From: Micavibrio aeruginosavorus
Lineage (GTDB): Bacteria; Pseudomonadota; Alphaproteobacteria; Micavibrionales; Micavibrionaceae
DNA: 64,000 nucleotides
Direction of reading: 5' to 3'
Assembly (NCBI GenBank): GCA_016432265.1
Contig: CP066681.1
Span: 1,576,342 to 1,640,341 of the forward strand
This document shows positions 52,882 through 64,000 of this stretch, piece after piece. Positions within the stretch are counted from its first letter, which is position 1, and the number at the start of each line of letters is the position of its first letter. The position numbers were made by a program, and so were the translations under genes. The notes beneath the pieces are model-generated. The model was not told where the DNA came from. It saw nothing but the letters and a program-made list of their open reading frames with translations, and did no database searches.

Positions 52882-52956
52882 TCCTCGATAGCTCAGCGGT
52901 AGAGCAATCGACTGTTAATCGATTGGTCGCAGGTTCGAATCCTGCTCGAGGAGCCA
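52882..52956 (+). tRNA. tRNA-Asn (anticodon GTT)
   Basis: Acceptor TCCTCGA pairs with TCGAGGA; anticodon loop CTGTTAA (GTT); T-arm CAGGTTCGAATCCTG; CCA at 52954-52956. An integrase gene follows 178 nt later, the usual position for a tRNA-targeting element. I see no second copy of its 3' end. Confidence 0.95.
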
Positions 52957-53080
52957 CTTCCCCGTCCAGAGACGTTCAACTACGTCCGGGCAAACTCAAA
53001 GAATCTCTGCATTTACAACGTTATATGCCCCACTCTTTATCCAAGATGGTTTGAAGGCATTTAGCCCCATTTTAAGATTT

Positions 53081-53136
53081 TGGGGGCATAATTATACGAA
53101 TGTGCCCCCACGTGAAAAAGGATATGCCCCCACATG
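53081..53136. promoter_or_regulatory. Repeated TATGCCCCCA boxes over the integrase start
   Basis: TGGGGGCATA (53081-53090, inverted), TGTGCCCCCACGTG (53101-53114) and TATGCCCCCACATG (53123-53136) repeat a TRTGCCCCCA core with about 20-nt spacing. The last contains the integrase ATG. A fourth, weaker copy (TATGCCCCA) lies near 53024. These may be autoregulatory or recombinase arm-type sites. Confidence 0.5.
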
Positions 53137-53865
53137 CTGACTGATAAAGCTTGTCGGGCAGCCATACCCGAATCAAAGCCTAAGAAAATTTTTGACTCCC
53201 AGGGTCTTTATCTTGAGGTTCTGCCCGCTGGCGGCAAATACTGGCGCTTAAAATACCGCTACAGGGGCAAGGAAAAGCGTTTGGCTCTTGGGGTCTATCC
53301 CAACATATCTCTGGCAGAAGCCCGACAGCGGCGTGATAAGGCAAAACGGCAGCTAGAAGAAGGAATCGACCCCTCTTTCTCAAAAAAGGAAGAAAAGCGC
53401 CTATCCAAGGAGAGCGGGAAGAATACTTTTGAATGTATAGCCAGAGAGTGGCATGACAACAGCATTGAAGGGTGGGACAGCCGTTACGCAGTCACCGTTA
53501 TGAAAAGACTTGAATCGGATGTTTTTCCGAGTATTGGCCATATGCCCATCAATAGCATCCGGGCACCTGAATTGCTGGAGATCGTCCGCAAGATTGAAAA
53601 AAGAAAAGCTTATGAAATAGCCCACCGCGCCATCCAAACTTGTAATCAGGTATTCCGGTATGCCGTGATCACAGGTCGCACCGATAGAAACCCGGCATTA
53701 GATTTCCGGGGAGTACTTAAAACTACAAAAACAAAACATTTCGCAGCAATAGATAGCAGCGACCTTCCTGATTTTCTGGCGGCTCTGGAACAGAATGATG
53801 CGCGGCTCTATGTAGCTCGACTAACCCATCGAAACCCCTGTTCGCAATGTATATCGCACTCATGA
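53134..53865 (+). pseudogene. Truncated tyrosine-recombinase integrase (DUF4102 type)
   Basis: 243 codons of a P4-type integrase that is normally ~400. N-terminal DUF4102 arm-binding domain: FDSQGLYLEVLPAGGKYWRL, YRGKEKRLALGVYPNISLAEA. Core-binding domain: AREWHDNSIEGWDSRYAVTV, AHRAIQTCNQVFRYAVITG. The catalytic domain (R..K..HxxR..Y) is absent: after ALEQNDARLY near 53810 the reading changes to an unrelated tail (VARLTHRNPC...) and stops. So it cannot recombine. The deletion junction seems to lie at ~53812-53820, directly beside the AT-rich minus-strand genes. Next to tRNA-Asn. Confidence 0.85.
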
Positions 53866-57196: not shown

Positions 57197-57673
57197 CTAT
57201 TGTATATAACCGTCGCATTTTCCCAGGATTCGTACCAGCTCATCAAACAAGCTTTCCTCCGATGTTCCTGTCCCATTCTGATTTTGGGAGATAACTCTTT
57301 CGGAGGCCTGTTCAATCCCTTCGATCAGAGCCTTTCTTGTAAACGGCTTGGCCAACGTATAATCTGAGTACAGGCTCGCTAATCCCACATAATCGTCGAT
57401 TGCGTTTTCTACCCCGCCCGTTATAGCCAGGACAGGGATATCATCTCTTACAGCTCTTATCTGCTTTATCAATTTCGTTCCATCCTGACCGGGCATGACA
57501 ATATCGGTAATAATCAGGCCAATATCACCATGCTTGCAGAACTGACGTAAGGCGTCGTCAGCAGAAAAGGCGTGCAGGATTTCATAGTTTCCGTTACTAA
57601 GAGCAACTGAAATCAGTTCGTGAATGAGTTGATCGTCGTCTACAACCAATACGCGCATTTTTACCTTTGACAC
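57197..57673 (-). CDS. Single-domain response regulator
   Basis: 158 residues. Receiver domain with VVDDDQ at the pocket, phosphoacceptor Asp57 in IITDIVMPGQDG, Thr in LAITGGVEN and Lys109 in TLAKPFTR. No output domain; a ~30-residue Glu-containing tail follows. Downstream of the hybrid kinase gene (110-nt gap) on the same strand, so it is a candidate phosphoacceptor of its HPt domain. ATG at codon 6 is an alternative start. Confidence 0.88.
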   Translation of the reverse strand: MSKVKMRVLVVDDDQLIHELISVALSNGNYEILHAFSADDALRQFCKHGDIGLIITDIVMPGQDGTKLIKQIRAVRDDIPVLAITGGVENAIDDYVGLASLYSDYTLAKPFTRKALIEGIEQASERVISQNQNGTGTSEESLFDELVRILGKCDGYIQ

Positions 57674-57784
57674 TAAAAATTTGACCGGCTCTATTCTTTT
57701 TAAAAGTCTATCTTCTCATTTTATATGGAAAATATTGACGTATGATTAAATTTGGCTCCTCAAAACTCTCCCATAATTAGGAAA

Positions 57785-60724
57785 CTATACCCATCTCGAT
57801 TCAAAAAAGCGGGAAATCCCCTCAAGACTGGCTGTAATATCAGCTACAAGGCTCTTTTTCTTATCCATGCTCCCCAAATTTTCTGCTTCGGCGGCCGCGC
57901 ACATCTGCGCCAACCCATTCGCCCCTATTTGAGACGCCGACCCCTTGAGCTTGTGAGATGCCATCTTCCAGTCCTCGTTGGAGGCCCTTCCCTGAATATG
58001 CTCTTCCAAGGTCTGCAAGCTGCTCCTGCCAACGTTCAGAAAGACATCCACCAGCATTTTCTCCTGCTCCATATCCCCATCCGTAAACAGCAAAAGGCGA
58101 GACATATCAACCACGCTGACGGCCTCTTCCTGAACTTGCTCCCCGGCGGCGGCACAAGAACTTTTCTGTTCTGAAGACGTATCGGCAACCCATTGCTTAA
58201 TCACGCTATAGAGCTTCTCAGGAACAACTGGCTTGCTTATGTAATCGTCCATGCCCGCCTTCATGCACATGTCACGATCCTTTTCCATCGCATGCGCCGT
58301 CATCGCAATAATCGGCGTCCTTTTATTGCCGGATTTCAGTTCAAGGCTTCTGATATTCTGCGAAGCTTCAAACCCATCCATCTCCGGCATCTGGCAATCC
58401 ATCAGAATGAGATCGTAAGAGCCCTCTACCTCATTCACACACTGCAAGGCCTGCACACCGTTCTCGGCCTTGTCTATATCCTTGAATCCTATTTTCCTCA
58501 GAAGCTTCTCCGCAAACATTATATTGACCGGATGGTCGTCAACCAGCAGAACCTTTTTCGTCATGAAAATATTTTCCGTTTGTTGCTCCTGCAGGGGCAA
58601 CCGGTTCTTCTTATTAAAGGCAACTTCCTCCGCCGCAGCTTTCAAGGGTAGAACAACAGTGAACGTCGTCCCTTCTCCAACAACGCTTTTGAAAGAAATA
58701 TCCCCCCCCATCATTTCAACCAGATTCTTCGAAATGGCAAGGCCCAGGCCTGTGCCACCAAACTTCCTGCTGGTGGAGGAATCGGCTTGCGAAAATTTCT
58801 GGAACAGTAATCCGTGAGCGTTCTCAGGAATGCCAATGCCGGTATCCGCTATCCGGAAGACCGCTGTCACAAAATCAGGCTGCTTGCCTTTCTCCACAAG
58901 AACCTCAAGTGTTACATGCCCCTTCTCTGTGAACTTTACGGCATTGCCAATCAGGTTAGTTATAATCTGCCCTATTCTTGTGGGATCTCCTATAAGGCTC
59001 GAAGAAGCCATATCAGTGTATTTGAAATTCAAAACTATACGCTTACGGCTGGCGATGGGGGACATAAGGTTAACAACATGCTGCATGCTTTCCCTGAGGT
59101 TAAACGGCATTTCCTCAAGAATAAGCTCCCCGGCTTCTATTTTTGAGAAATCAAGAATATCGTTTAACAGCAACAGGAGAGAATCTCCTGACATCAATAC
59201 CGCATCCACATATTTTTTTTGCTCGTCATCCAGCGGCGTATCCAGCAATAACGATGTCAATCCTATAATGCCGTTCATAGGGGTGCGCAATTCATGACTT
59301 ATATTCGCCAGAAAATCGGATTTGGCCAAATTGGCTTTCTCCGCATCTTTCTTTGATTCCACCAGTTCGCGCGTGCGCGTATTGTACCACTTGGATATTT
59401 GCCCTATTTCATTTGGACTGTTTTCATCCAGATAGACAATTTCCTCACCCGCAGAAGAGTTCGCCCTGAGTTTTCTAATGATGCTATTCAGCGGCGCAAC
59501 CACTATCCTCTGAACCGAAATAAAGAACCCCATAAGGACTATAGCAAGCGCAAAAAGCGTTATGACAGTAATCTTCAGAAACATCTTATCCGCATATCTT
59601 GCGATAACTGTTTCCGGGGTAACAAGCACAACTCTCCAATCCATATGAGGCAGCACAAAGATGCTTGCGTAGGAGGGCTCTCCGAGGATTATATCATTAG
59701 GAATCTTGACATGGTGTGGCTGAATAACTTCGCCGCTATACATAACGCTCTCATTTTTCCGGATGACGAACCTCGCAATTTTTTCTGCCTCCGCAGAATC
59801 TATCTGATAACTGTCCTCATCTACCTTGCGGGAAACATCTGCTATATATGAGTCACTCGTTCCATCATCAACACCTGCCTTTTGAAGCACCGTGTAGGCC
59901 TGCACTTCATGCGCCAGGTCGGCAAAGACGCTGTTCCGCTTCGTCAACGCGTTAATATCGATATACTCTCTTTTTTCAATTTCAGTTTTTCCCTCTTCCC
60001 CCAGTTGCACCATCTTTTGGGAAGGGAAGGAAATGAATTTGTCATTCCTGTCTATAATGAACGCATACCCCCCTATTGTCTTCATACCCTCTTGCAACAG
60101 GTCGGCGATGCCTTCAAGCTTGAGGTCAATTGTTGACACTCCTATGAATTTTTCCTCCTCCTTCATAGCGATAGTGCAGGTGATCATGGGCTGGAAAGAG
60201 TATGGATCCACATACGATCTTGACCAGTAGCACCCGCGGTTACTCATATACCGAGAAGGAACGTACCACTCTTCATGATGATACCCGTTACCCTTAGGGT
60301 CGTTGTAATCATCATAGTATTCAAGAACCCCCTCATTATTCCTGCCCCAAAAGAAACTTCTGCGCTCAACCCCTGAAGAAAACCAATCCGGCTCCGGCCA
60401 TATACCACCGCCGGCAATGACATTTGCAGCCAGATCAAGGTTAATAATTGCCGGAATATGACTTTTGAAGACACTCTCGTCTTTCGGCATTATCAGGCCT
60501 AGTTTGGCAATATTCGTAGCCAATGTCTCCGCTATAATCAGGCGGTTGTTCAAGTGCTTAATGAATCGGTTCCCGGTTAGGGCATGTTCTTCCAGAGCTT
60601 TCTCTTCCAGAAAATTCAGAACGTATTGCCTTTGAATAAAGATAATGGCAAAGCTCAGCATAAAACACGTCAAAACGAACATAAGCGTTAGCTGAATTGA
60701 AATGTTTTTCTTCATAAACATCAA
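57785..60724 (-). CDS. dCache hybrid histidine kinase with receiver and HPt domains
   Basis: 979 residues. Transmembrane helix ~10-32, dCache-type periplasmic sensor ~40-375 (GNGYHHEEWYVPSRYMSNRG, FIGVSTIDLKLEGIADLL), second helix ~385-405, HAMP ~405-460, HisKA with His477 (ISHELRTPMNG), HATPase with N594 (ITNLIGNAVKF), DTGIGIP and GGTGLGL, receiver with Asp776 (LILMDCQMPEMDG), and a C-terminal HPt with His924 (ASHKLKGSA). So it contains a complete phosphorelay in one chain. The ligand is unknown. Neighbours are two receiver-only genes and two degenerate GGDEF/EAL-like genes. Confidence 0.92.
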   Translation of the reverse strand: MMFMKKNISIQLTLMFVLTCFMLSFAIIFIQRQYVLNFLEEKALEEHALTGNRFIKHLNNRLIIAETLATNIAKLGLIMPKDESVFKSHIPAIINLDLAANVIAGGGIWPEPDWFSSGVERRSFFWGRNNEGVLEYYDDYNDPKGNGYHHEEWYVPSRYMSNRGCYWSRSYVDPYSFQPMITCTIAMKEEEKFIGVSTIDLKLEGIADLLQEGMKTIGGYAFIIDRNDKFISFPSQKMVQLGEEGKTEIEKREYIDINALTKRNSVFADLAHEVQAYTVLQKAGVDDGTSDSYIADVSRKVDEDSYQIDSAEAEKIARFVIRKNESVMYSGEVIQPHHVKIPNDIILGEPSYASIFVLPHMDWRVVLVTPETVIARYADKMFLKITVITLFALAIVLMGFFISVQRIVVAPLNSIIRKLRANSSAGEEIVYLDENSPNEIGQISKWYNTRTRELVESKKDAEKANLAKSDFLANISHELRTPMNGIIGLTSLLLDTPLDDEQKKYVDAVLMSGDSLLLLLNDILDFSKIEAGELILEEMPFNLRESMQHVVNLMSPIASRKRIVLNFKYTDMASSSLIGDPTRIGQIITNLIGNAVKFTEKGHVTLEVLVEKGKQPDFVTAVFRIADTGIGIPENAHGLLFQKFSQADSSTSRKFGGTGLGLAISKNLVEMMGGDISFKSVVGEGTTFTVVLPLKAAAEEVAFNKKNRLPLQEQQTENIFMTKKVLLVDDHPVNIMFAEKLLRKIGFKDIDKAENGVQALQCVNEVEGSYDLILMDCQMPEMDGFEASQNIRSLELKSGNKRTPIIAMTAHAMEKDRDMCMKAGMDDYISKPVVPEKLYSVIKQWVADTSSEQKSSCAAAGEQVQEEAVSVVDMSRLLLFTDGDMEQEKMLVDVFLNVGRSSLQTLEEHIQGRASNEDWKMASHKLKGSASQIGANGLAQMCAAAEAENLGSMDKKKSLVADITASLEGISRFFESRWV

Positions 60725-60805
60725 TGAGAGTCCCTTCCAAAACCTGCAAACGGAATACTAATTGCCTATATAGGCCGGCATCCTTGTCACGTCATACGTC
60801 AGTTA

Positions 60806-62254
60806 CTAACCCTGCTTGCTCATCAAAGCTGAAACAATATTTTCGTGCTTGTATTTGTGTATAGCGTCCGGCTTTGCCACGGAATCGTGAACGGCGGGGC
60901 CGCCGATATAATCAAAACCGGCGCAAACGGAAGATGTCGTCAGGCTTAGAGAGGAGACGCCCATAACAAACGTCAGGGGAATCTTATGAGATTTCGCTGT
61001 ATTGCTAAAACCGCCCAGAATACCGATCGCCTGTTTTTCCTCTACATGCTTATCCAATATGACACCTACGCCATCAAGCCCTATAGCCTTCAGTGACTGA
61101 AAATATATGCCTTGCTTCAAAGGCACTTCTGCAAAAAAAAGGCGACTATACTTCTTGATGGCGGGAAGGAACCAATAGGCATCTTTTGCATTCAACTGCT
61201 TCTCCGGCTTCAAGATCAACAACACCAGGAATTGCCTTTGCTGCAAAGGAATACTCTCAAGACACTCCTTATACGATTCATAACTTTCAAAGTTGAATAA
61301 AGTTTCGTAACAAACCGGGCAGACAATCAGAAACTTTCTGCCATCTTCAACCATTAACGCCAACTCGCTCATAACATGCTGAAGAAGCTGAATGTCCGCA
61401 GCAACACGCCCCCCTGAATCCAAGTGGGCATAAACGGATTTATGCCCTTCCAACAAAGTCGCTACACCCCGTGCGTCTTCCGCAAGACACATATACGCAG
61501 TCAGAGCGGCTCGCCTCACATCCCATAACGGCATATAGGAAAATTTGATGTTGGACAGATAGCGCGCCACGTCCTGTTTGGATTGCGGCTTATAGTCATG
61601 AGCCTCGATTTCAACGGCAGCGCCCATAGCCTCATAGTCATCTTCCTGATTCTCTTCAAGTACGGAATTCACAACAGGCTCGGAAGAATCGTCGACATAC
61701 TCCCCCAGGAAATCCGGAAAATCAAATCTGGATAATGTATCGGCAGTTAGCTCACGGACAGCCTTCTTGACCTCAATCTCCCTGAGTTCCTCTTCATCCA
61801 GCAAGAAGAGCCTTCTTCTGACTTCTTCCGCAATAGCATCTGCCTTAGCTTTCCCCTCTTCCAAATTCGCATAAGCAAATATAATGACATATGTGTCATC
61901 AGCATAACGAACGAACAGATCGTTTTTGCCGATATGTTCGATAATTACGTCTTCAACTGTGTCATAAACCACGGCACATAGCCCATCCCACCTTTTCCCC
62001 ATGCGCTTTCTAATTTTCGACAGGCCTATAAGCTGCAACCTACCTGAGGTTAAAATCTCGCTTTTCCTAAATAGCTGATCACAAAGCTCATGAAGAGCCT
62101 TCTTCTTTTCAGGGCTCAGCGATGCCGATCTATAGGAAAATATGTGCGCAGGTGCTGGCGTTTTATTCCTGCCCGGCCACAACAGACGCGCGCGTTCAAG
62201 GTAAGGAAGAATTGAACGCTGGAATTGATCAAAAAAAGCTAACACTATGGACAC
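60806..62254 (-). CDS. Degenerate GGDEF-like plus EAL-like protein
   Basis: 482 residues. Residues ~70-160 resemble a GGDEF fold, but the signature position reads RYADDTYVIIF (116-126) rather than RxGGDEF, so no cyclase activity is expected. An acidic linker (~180-225) leads to an EAL-like region from ~235: FSYMPLWDVRRAALTAYMC, FLIVCPVCYETLF, and GFDYIGGPAVHD at the end. None of the standard EAL catalytic residues is clear. The C-terminal half is paralogous to the 62970 gene. Probably a signal-binding or protein-interaction module rather than an enzyme. Confidence 0.68.
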   Translation of the reverse strand: MSIVLAFFDQFQRSILPYLERARLLWPGRNKTPAPAHIFSYRSASLSPEKKKALHELCDQLFRKSEILTSGRLQLIGLSKIRKRMGKRWDGLCAVVYDTVEDVIIEHIGKNDLFVRYADDTYVIIFAYANLEEGKAKADAIAEEVRRRLFLLDEEELREIEVKKAVRELTADTLSRFDFPDFLGEYVDDSSEPVVNSVLEENQEDDYEAMGAAVEIEAHDYKPQSKQDVARYLSNIKFSYMPLWDVRRAALTAYMCLAEDARGVATLLEGHKSVYAHLDSGGRVAADIQLLQHVMSELALMVEDGRKFLIVCPVCYETLFNFESYESYKECLESIPLQQRQFLVLLILKPEKQLNAKDAYWFLPAIKKYSRLFFAEVPLKQGIYFQSLKAIGLDGVGVILDKHVEEKQAIGILGGFSNTAKSHKIPLTFVMGVSSLSLTTSSVCAGFDYIGGPAVHDSVAKPDAIHKYKHENIVSALMSKQG

Positions 62255-62340
62255 AGCCCTGCAAAAAGAAGCACCGTGAGAAGGTAGGAAAAATCCCCCT
62301 AATCCCCCATCCCAGAAATATACATCTTTTGTTCATGTCC

Positions 62341-62727
62341 TCAGCGCAAAACACCCTTGATGGCGCTCATAAGCTCTTCAGGCTTAAACGGTTTGCTTAA
62401 AACCATGTCGGCCCCGATTTGCTTTGCCAAATTAAGAAAATTCATATTTTGCGTAGCTCCGCCGCCGGACATGGCAATGATCTTAACTTTGGCGTTCTTC
62501 GCCCGAATTTCGGATATTGTTTCCAAGCCTTCCTTATCAGGCATCAGCATATCTGTGATAACTATCTGCGGCGCTTCCTTCCTGAACTGCTCAAGGCCCT
62601 TTACCCCGTTTTCTGCCTCGATGACCGTATAATTCATCTTTTTTAGTATGTTACGGCAGGTCATTCTGATCAACTCGTCGTCATCAATGACAAGAATCTT
62701 GGAAACATGTGTATTCAAAAAAGCCAT
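62341..62727 (-). CDS. Single-domain response regulator
   Basis: 128 residues, pure receiver. VIDDDELIRMTCRN at the pocket, phosphoacceptor Asp59 in IVITDMLMPDKEG, Ser in IIAMSGGG and Lys112 in VLSKPFKPEE. It lies between the two degenerate GGDEF/EAL-like genes on the same strand and could receive phosphate from the 57785 kinase. Confidence 0.9.
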   Translation of the reverse strand: MAFLNTHVSKILVIDDDELIRMTCRNILKKMNYTVIEAENGVKGLEQFRKEAPQIVITDMLMPDKEGLETISEIRAKNAKVKIIAMSGGGATQNMNFLNLAKQIGADMVLSKPFKPEELMSAIKGVLR

Positions 62728-62969
62728 TTTAAACCCTTAACCATAGTTGATCCGGCAATAGCCACGTTTCCAGTAAAGGCTCCTCCTACCCTTACTTTGT
62801 AATTGTAGCTTATAATTGTATTCGATAATTGTATATTCAAAATGTTTATTCTATCTTAGCAAATTAGATAAAATTAATATTTATACACGTTTTATTTTTA
62901 TCCGGCTTCCCTCCTAAGGCTCTGTATTTATGGTAGAAATCTCCTCCTCCACCGATTCCGGGCTGCTAC
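62728..62969. other. AT-rich gap in the signalling cluster
   Basis: 242 nt rich in A and T (62820-62910 especially). No reading frame or clear hairpin. It presumably holds the promoter of the minus-strand receiver gene. Confidence 0.3.
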
Positions 62970-64000
62970 TCAGCCATGCAGGGAACAGGGCACCTGACCC
63001 ATATCAAGCGCACCAAGGGTAACCGCCATAGCCTGCGAGCCTGACACTAAAAGATCGGGGTTTTTGATCATTGCCACGGTCATTTTCCGGGCAGGCCAGC
63101 AGATTTTCTGCGCCGGCCGGATATAGCTGCCTGAAACAAAATTATACCCGGCCTTGATGGCGGCATCAAAGATCATGGAACTGGTCACACCTTTAATATA
63201 ATATTTCATGTCATGCTTCTTCTGGTTTTCCGCATATTTCAGAACCAAGCGGACTTTCTCTTCCTCGTTCATCGACATCTCTGAAATGTCGAAGCCGCAG
63301 GCATACAATTTGGGAAAACTGCGCGTAAAACTGACATGCGATAAAATGCCGGTATCAAAGCTATAAGCCCTGACATAATGACTGAGACGCTCAACCGTAG
63401 CAATCATGCCAGTGGAAACGGCACTGGCCGGAACCCCCCTTATCTCAATGATCAGGTTACGCTTGATTTCCAACGGCAAAGACTTCATGAAGGCCAGGAT
63501 AAACTCGCTAACGTTTTTATCCGTTACCGTTTGCAAACGTAAAGGAACAACAACCAAGGCATTCGCATTTTTGATCTGCAAGGATCTGATCTGCAGACAT
63601 GCCGCGAACAACCCAGCTAAATCCTGACGGGCGATTTCCCCTGTATTATATTGCTGGACAGGAACATGCCCGCGCACCACGGCCAGCGACCCTGACATAA
63701 TCTGGCTGCCATAATCCCAGAACGGGAAATATTGAATTTCTACCTGCGCAATAATTTCTGCCATTTCACGCGTCATCGGAAATTTTCGTCGCTCCACCAG
63801 CATATCTTGCATAACCTGTGACACCCAGAAGTGAACAGCCTCAATCCTGGGGTTTGTCTTCAAACCTTCTTTCAGGATTTTTGCGATCTCTGCATGGTTA
63901 TGCCCGGCCCTTCCTGCATCATCCTTGTCAGCGCAATATCCATCCACTTTTATAATCTCAGCCGGGCCAATTGAATCTTGCTGCGCCAACTGCAGGCTTT
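62970..64000 (-). CDS. EAL-like protein, runs off the window
   Basis: At least 343 residues; the frame continues past position 64000 with no stop or convincing start before the edge (the apparent start at 63989 is TTG inside an open frame). Residues include FPFWDYGSQIMSGSLAVVRG and VVVPLRLQTVTDKNVSEF. The middle and end match the C-terminal half of the 60806 product in layout: a WD motif, a hydrophobic strand V(V/C)PL, an EIRG or LILK strand, and GYNFVSGSYI. Catalytic EAL residues are not evident. Likely a signalling-cluster partner. Confidence 0.65.
   Translation of the reverse strand, partial: SLQLAQQDSIGPAEIIKVDGYCADKDDAGRAGHNHAEIAKILKEGLKTNPRIEAVHFWVSQVMQDMLVERRKFPMTREMAEIIAQVEIQYFPFWDYGSQIMSGSLAVVRGHVPVQQYNTGEIARQDLAGLFAACLQIRSLQIKNANALVVVPLRLQTVTDKNVSEFILAFMKSLPLEIKRNLIIEIRGVPASAVSTGMIATVERLSHYVRAYSFDTGILSHVSFTRSFPKLYACGFDISEMSMNEEEKVRLVLKYAENQKKHDMKYYIKGVTSSMIFDAAIKAGYNFVSGSYIRPAQKICWPARKMTVAMIKNPDLLVSGSQAMAVTLGALDMGQVPCSLHG

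Follow-up and report, generated by a model that had tools for sequence, protein, structure and literature searches.

Single-domain receivers are common, as are degenerate GGDEF-EAL proteins, and for both the output is often not known. Among stand-alone inactive EAL proteins, YdiV/STM1344 and STM1697 are enterobacterial and consist of an EAL domain only, and we know of no receiver or kinase partner for them. The passages on inactive EAL domains in a 2023 review treat the ExLxR motif as determinative for c-di-GMP binding by such domains; there, FimX, a protein with a receiver domain, keeps the motif and binds c-di-GMP, LapD is a receptor that binds c-di-GMP with it, and YdiV and STM1697 neither bind nor cut c-di-GMP and interact with transcription factors (PMC10333796).

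A five-gene cluster and its phosphorelay kinase

The cluster considered here was found in Micavibrio aeruginosavorus, in a window, i.e., the whole stretch of 64,000 nt that was analysed, comprising bases 1576342–1640341 of a single-contig genome of 2.46 Mb. Five minus-strand genes are arranged in the transcription order A452, REC128, B482, HHK979, and REC158, with intergenic gaps of 242, 86, 81, and 111 nt. The open reading frames lie where a first-pass annotation of this DNA had placed them, and its observation as a whole, that of a self-contained phosphorelay beside two degenerate GGDEF/EAL-like paralogues, is confirmed. The features are as follows.

57197–57673, minus strand: REC158, receiver-only response regulator, fifth gene of the cluster (Pfam Response_reg 71 bits, cut-off 30.2; phospho-Asp D57)
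57785–60724, minus strand: HHK979, membrane hybrid histidine kinase of 979 aa, PDC-HisKA-HATPase-REC-HPt (Pfam; NCBIfam BarA/TorS/ArcB-like core, below equivalog cut-offs)
59990–60418, minus strand: PDC/dCache-like periplasmic sensor part of HHK979, residues 103–245 (MCP-like_PDC_1 35.8 bits, cut-off 27; dCache_1 31.2 bits, below its cut-off of 45)
59129–59326, minus strand: HisKA of HHK979, residues 467–532, His 477 by motif position (Pfam 81.5 bits)
58640–58990, minus strand: HATPase_c of HHK979, residues 579–695 (Pfam 104.5 bits)
58199–58552, minus strand: internal receiver of HHK979, residues 725–842, Asp 776 by motif position (Pfam 98.8 bits)
57821–58054, minus strand: HPt of HHK979, residues 891–968, His 924 by motif position (Pfam Hpt 30.9 bits, cut-off 24.6)
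60806–62254, minus strand: B482, degenerate GGDEF-EAL protein of 482 aa (AlphaFold2 model with Foldseek and VIA; profile comparisons)
61730–62059, minus strand: GGDEF-like part of B482, about residues 66–175 (profile comparison; AlphaFold2 strands)
61889–61903, minus strand: ADDTY at the GGDEF site of B482, residues 118–122 (profile alignment with GGEEF)
60851–61579, minus strand: EAL-like part of B482, about residues 226–468 (VIA Z 21.5 over 245 residues, 3.2 Å, to the EAL domain of YkuI)
62341–62727, minus strand: REC128, receiver-only response regulator directly upstream of B482 (Pfam 96.2 bits; phospho-Asp D59; orthologue upstream of B in 13 loci)
62970–64000, minus strand: A452, degenerate EAL-like protein, truncated by the window edge; the full gene (452 aa) occupies window-equivalent 62970–64328 (L002:10970-12328)

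HisKA, HATPase_c, Response_reg, Hpt, and MCP-like_PDC_1 all exceed their Pfam cut-offs in HHK979, and the phosphorylatable residues read from motif positions, DHp His 477, receiver Asp 776, and HPt His 924, form a complete relay set, as in hybrid kinases with a phosphorelay to HPt. The HPt histidine is the one that the first-pass annotation had singled out, and its list of kinase domains stands except for the sensor, which it had called dCache and which passes the cut-off as MCP-like_PDC_1 instead. The two receiver-only proteins that it had placed on either side of the kinase region both exceed the Response_reg cut-off; REC128 and REC158 consist of a receiver only and retain the acidic pair, the phospho-Asp, the Ser/Thr, and the Lys, that is, the make-up of single-domain response regulators.

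The stretch that holds the cluster, between tRNA-Asn (52882) and tRNA-Arg (window-equivalent 65679), is low in GC (mostly 0.39–0.49). At its edge, tRNA-Asn is followed by an integrase gene (53134; the two together span 52882–53865) encoding the Arm and central domains without the catalytic domain. No attachment repeat, that of the tRNA 3′ end, was found, and insertion of the cluster as an island is therefore not demonstrated. Promoter and terminator scans were uninformative (9 promoter and 7 terminator sites; shuffled sequences gave 13.7 and 7.6), and comparison with PHROGs gave nothing useful.

Fold and residue loss in B482 and A452

Domain libraries do not name either paralogue: B482 falls under all Pfam and NCBIfam cut-offs (GGDEF 12.6 bits vs 23.8; no EAL match), A452 has no name in either library over the 342 aa inside the window, and a single-sequence PDB search gave no relevant match. 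The predicted structure of B482 (AlphaFold2, with eight relatives; pLDDT 70, pTM 0.53) has a GGDEF-EAL fold, its EAL part superposing on that of YkuI, and the matches listed from the PDB by Foldseek (best E 1.6e-12) are GGDEF-EAL or EAL structures, 3pjw and 6pwk among them. For A452, a weak fragment model (pLDDT 56.5) matches EAL domains weakly (VIA Z 9.7, Foldseek E 2.4e-6), a match that is not independent of B482 because the alignment behind the model included B-family rows.

The hhalign comparisons took their reference profiles from this genome: its six EAL domains and six of the seven GGDEF domains that exceed the cut-off. The B family matches GGDEF (85%, E 6.3e-6) and, directly, EAL only weakly (17%), so that the link of B to EAL rests on A452, on the profile of the 61-member family described below, and on the predicted fold. 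That profile matches both EAL (97.7%, E 2.3e-12) and GGDEF (94.8%, E 5e-8). The A family matches EAL (91%, E 9.6e-7, 200 columns), and its comparison with GGDEF gives a probability of 0.4%, leaving a GGDEF-like half unsupported on its own. A and B are homologous (99%, E 4.5e-18). The first-pass annotation had seen two paralogues with GGDEF and EAL likeness, both with ADDTY in place of GGDEF; the paralogy holds, and ADDTY aligns with GGEEF in B482 but is absent from A452, which carries an EAL-like domain with at most a vestigial GGDEF-like half.

Residues were counted in a non-redundant set of 61 members, of which the order contributed 36 and the class 25; one outlier had been dropped from the 62 collected. 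At the nine EAL catalytic and metal positions (E, N, E, E, D, D, K, E, Q), B482 retains 0/9 and A452 2/9 (E295, D325), neither having the residues of an EAL phosphodiesterase, in agreement with the earlier claim that the signatures are missing. Throughout the family, the Glu of the EAL motif, the first Asp, the Lys, and the Gln are each retained in 0/61, and the second Asp in 9/61; the first Glu of LEITE is kept in 26/61 and the second in 2/60, and the first Glu of AEGVE in 3/61. The Asn persists in 3/61, with Pro in its place in 47/61, and Gly replaces the Lys in 42/61. Since these replacements are themselves conserved, they argue for a maintained new function rather than decay. The GGDEF site is equally degenerate: B482 has Gly77 and Ser79 in the metal-Asp columns besides ADDTY, A452 has RGGLV at the site and one of the two metal Asp (D39), and Glu stands at the fourth position in 4/60 members.

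The c-di-GMP-binding motif ExLxR was not found in A452 or B482, and across the family its Glu is present in 0/61 and its Arg in 12/61; at the RxxD site of GGDEF, Arg is present in 2/61 and Asp in 45/61. The first-pass annotation had suggested that the c-di-GMP-like domains act as sensors or scaffolds rather than enzymes, an interpretation that is partly supported. The loss of EAL residues, together with the recurrence of REC128, B, and a kinase described below, supports "not enzymes" and makes a scaffold plausible, while the absence of ExLxR from A and B and the near-absence of the RxxD Arg weaken the case for a c-di-GMP sensor.

Recurrence in the order and spread across the class

Among 142 genomes of the order, 24 B-family loci in 19 genomes were examined, one of them remote (G048). 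The B profile matches 25/142 genomes (E<=0.001), several with A-like or EAL-only matches that were left out of the locus count. REC128 was sought by tblastn, as picking the longest open reading frames hid it under antisense frames at some loci. At 13/24 loci, in three families (f1, f3, and f7), the gene immediately preceding B, on the same strand, is an orthologue of REC128 (47–75% identity); these loci are G000, G047, G022, G077, G085, G100, G063, G124, G141, G132-C1, G123, G133, and G131. A hybrid kinase adjoins 12 of these 13 loci, the exception being G131, and the nine neighbouring kinases scanned (eight loci, one flanked by two) are all HisKA-HATPase-REC-HPt proteins with varying sensors (MHYT in six, CHASE in two, Tll0287-like in one). 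The order and strand of REC128 and B are thus constant in 13/13 loci, while the side, strand, and sensor of the kinase vary. REC128 also varies less than B, with mean pairwise identities of 56% and 38% over 12 loci.

Receivers with at least 47% identity, a line chosen after the hits were seen, occur in 14/142 genomes, 13 of which hold the REC128-B module; receivers at E<=1e-24 occur in 21/142. The coincidence of 13/14 such genomes with the 19 that have B loci gives a Fisher p of 4e-13 (4e-9 with all 21 receiver-positive genomes), which is descriptive only because the genomes are related. The module is patchy, being present in 13/142 genomes, and no REC128 adjoins 11/24 B loci (the three tandem copies of G023, the three of G078, and those of G079, G081, G132-C8, G087, and G048). 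No gene for a partner or an output recurs across the loci. What is conserved as a unit is REC128 immediately before B, commonly with a hybrid kinase, and A and REC158 are optional; conservation of the cluster, raised in the first-pass annotation, accordingly applies to this unit and not to all five genes.

Several loci depart from the common arrangement. In G049 (L017:7253-8746), a kinase gene with a HAMP domain breaks off after 43 of the 66 HisKA positions and continues directly as the C-terminal 31 residues of a B-family protein, which suggests the scar of a deletion joining a kinase and a B gene that were once neighbours there. G023 and G078 (L014, L105) have three divergent tandem B paralogues (24–30% identity to B) without a receiver neighbour, near what look by eye like NADH dehydrogenase genes. 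In G123 (L113:6218-7682), a truncated B of 235 aa precedes a transposase of the IS1595 type, whose Pfam match exceeds the cut-off.

Matches to the A family occur in 19/142 genomes of the order. In the tree, 13 A-family rows form one clade (100/100) and the B-family rows of the order, except the remote G048, form another (100/100), making A and B ancient paralogues; the REC128-bearing B loci do not make one clean clade. A and B as a conserved pair were considered and rejected, the tree separating the two and A loci lying away from B elsewhere in the contexts read. In a genome of the same genus (G001, 83% complete), A is present and no B was found; on its contig of only 4.6 kb (L038), the A orthologue (69%) adjoins, by eye, catalase-peroxidase-like and Fur-like genes, with no B module.

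The family extends well beyond the order. The B profile matches 69/385 genomes sampled across Alphaproteobacteria (E<=1e-4) and the A profile 43/385, and some genomes carry several copies. None of the ten class-wide members scanned reaches any Pfam or NCBIfam cut-off, and both long ones scanned have N-terminal PAS domains. The best PDB match of a 27-row family profile (A8) is FimX (4j40; E 6e-11), with both domains aligned. Eight database loci with B relatives belong to alphaproteobacterial metagenome-assembled genomes, three of them Micavibrio sp. Two plasmid matches are Azospirillum proteins annotated as "hypothetical protein" (L172:5965-7257, L173:5968-7257), directly before the hydrogenase maturation genes HyaD, HypC, HybE, and HypA. 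Outside the order, in raw counts, a kinase or receiver gene lies within 1 kb at 9/37 loci and 28/37 have neither; with the 11/24 loci lacking REC128, these counts indicate that members can work without the module. One member with two GGDEF-like halves (G435; L154:7913-11492), for which the tree gives a weak position as sister to the B clade (83/81), has a receiver 43% identical to REC128 directly upstream, and a REC-EAL protein also precedes it; the latter strongly matches the ordinary EAL profile, so that a dead EAL protein shares this cluster with one that is probably live. A phylum-wide search gave 62/398 matches, mostly weak outside the class (E 1e-9 to 1e-5) and probably cross-matching ordinary GGDEF and EAL domains; the protein behind the one match at 4e-14 matches EAL as well. 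The family is termed alphaproteobacterial with that reservation. In a literature search of open-licence papers, no description of the B/A family or of the REC128-B module was found.

Proposed pathway and comparison with known systems

The reading that we prefer, at about even odds of being right, is that of a sensor phosphorelay with a pseudo-enzyme as its dedicated output, phospho-REC128 acting on the c-di-GMP-blind adaptor B. HHK979 would sense a periplasmic cue through its PDC domain and pass phosphate from His477 to Asp776, His924, and Asp59 of REC128, and possibly also to Asp57 of REC158, a path expected from what is known of these families. REC128 would then bind or release B482, a cytoplasmic protein of GGDEF-EAL fold; deprived of catalysis and of the usual contacts to c-di-GMP, B482 may act as a protein adaptor towards some other partner. 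The domain anatomy, the predicted fold of B, the residue losses, and the recurrence of REC128, B, and the kinase are observed; this binding, the independence of c-di-GMP, and the output we infer. A452 would be an ancient relative that adjoins the module here and is no part of it elsewhere. Somewhat more tentatively, B may represent a family, so far undescribed, of pseudo-GGDEF-EAL adaptors blind to c-di-GMP across Alphaproteobacteria, of which the Micavibrio-lineage branch has become bound to a dedicated single-domain receiver and a hybrid kinase, giving a dead-enzyme effector switched by a separate receiver.

B, and A with it, might instead be c-di-GMP receptors like FimX and LapD, binding via altered residues, in which case the module would integrate the phosphorelay with c-di-GMP. 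FimX is the nearest solved relative by family profile, its own receiver domain, described in the review (PMC10333796), parallels the REC128-B gene pair, and the genome has a c-di-GMP system of its own (seven GGDEF and six EAL matches over cut-off); however, the loss of ExLxR, of the EAL-site Gln, and of the RxxD Arg renders this rather doubtful. A new ligand or an altered catalytic activity of B would fit the conserved replacements at active-site columns (Pro, Gly, and His), as in a remade pocket, but B482 keeps none of the canonical EAL residues and nothing points to any ligand, and we regard it as very improbable.

It is also conceivable, though unlikely, that REC128 and the kinase form a pathway of their own, such as a phosphate sink or a switch with its target elsewhere, and that B is merely transcribed along with them while serving a different purpose. 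The many B members without a receiver neighbour, in the order and outside it, would suit such an arrangement, as would the REC128-like receivers (38–44% identity) in genomes and places without B. Against it, the order and strand of REC128 and B recur at every locus of the module while the kinase varies in side, strand, and sensor.

The recurring gene pair provides a concrete, testable link between single-domain receivers and degenerate GGDEF-EAL proteins, and it reveals a family without a name in Pfam or NCBIfam, "hypothetical" in both annotated records. If its members indeed neither make, break, nor bind c-di-GMP, they would represent a large set of second-messenger folds repurposed for protein-protein signalling.

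Compared with described systems, HHK979 shares the HisKA-HATPase-REC-HPt core of the BarA/ArcB/TorS-type hybrid kinases (NCBIfam BarA 433 bits, TorS 398 bits), but differs from them in staying under every equivalog cut-off, in its PDC sensor, and in a cluster without a DNA-binding response regulator. LapD and B482 both have a degenerate GGDEF-EAL pair, the structures 3pjw and 6pwk being those of LapD, but B482 lacks the motif with which LapD binds its ligand. FimX of Pseudomonas and Xanthomonas (REC-PAS-dGGDEF-dEAL) is likewise a single cytoplasmic chain with degenerate GGDEF and EAL halves; the receiver is fused in FimX and encoded by the neighbouring gene for B482, which has neither REC nor PAS in its chain, and PAS recurs in some class-wide members, whereas the ExLxR of FimX is lost from B and A. 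In its proposed way of working, B482 may resemble YdiV/STM1344 and STM1697, with a GGDEF-EAL pair in place of their single EAL domain.
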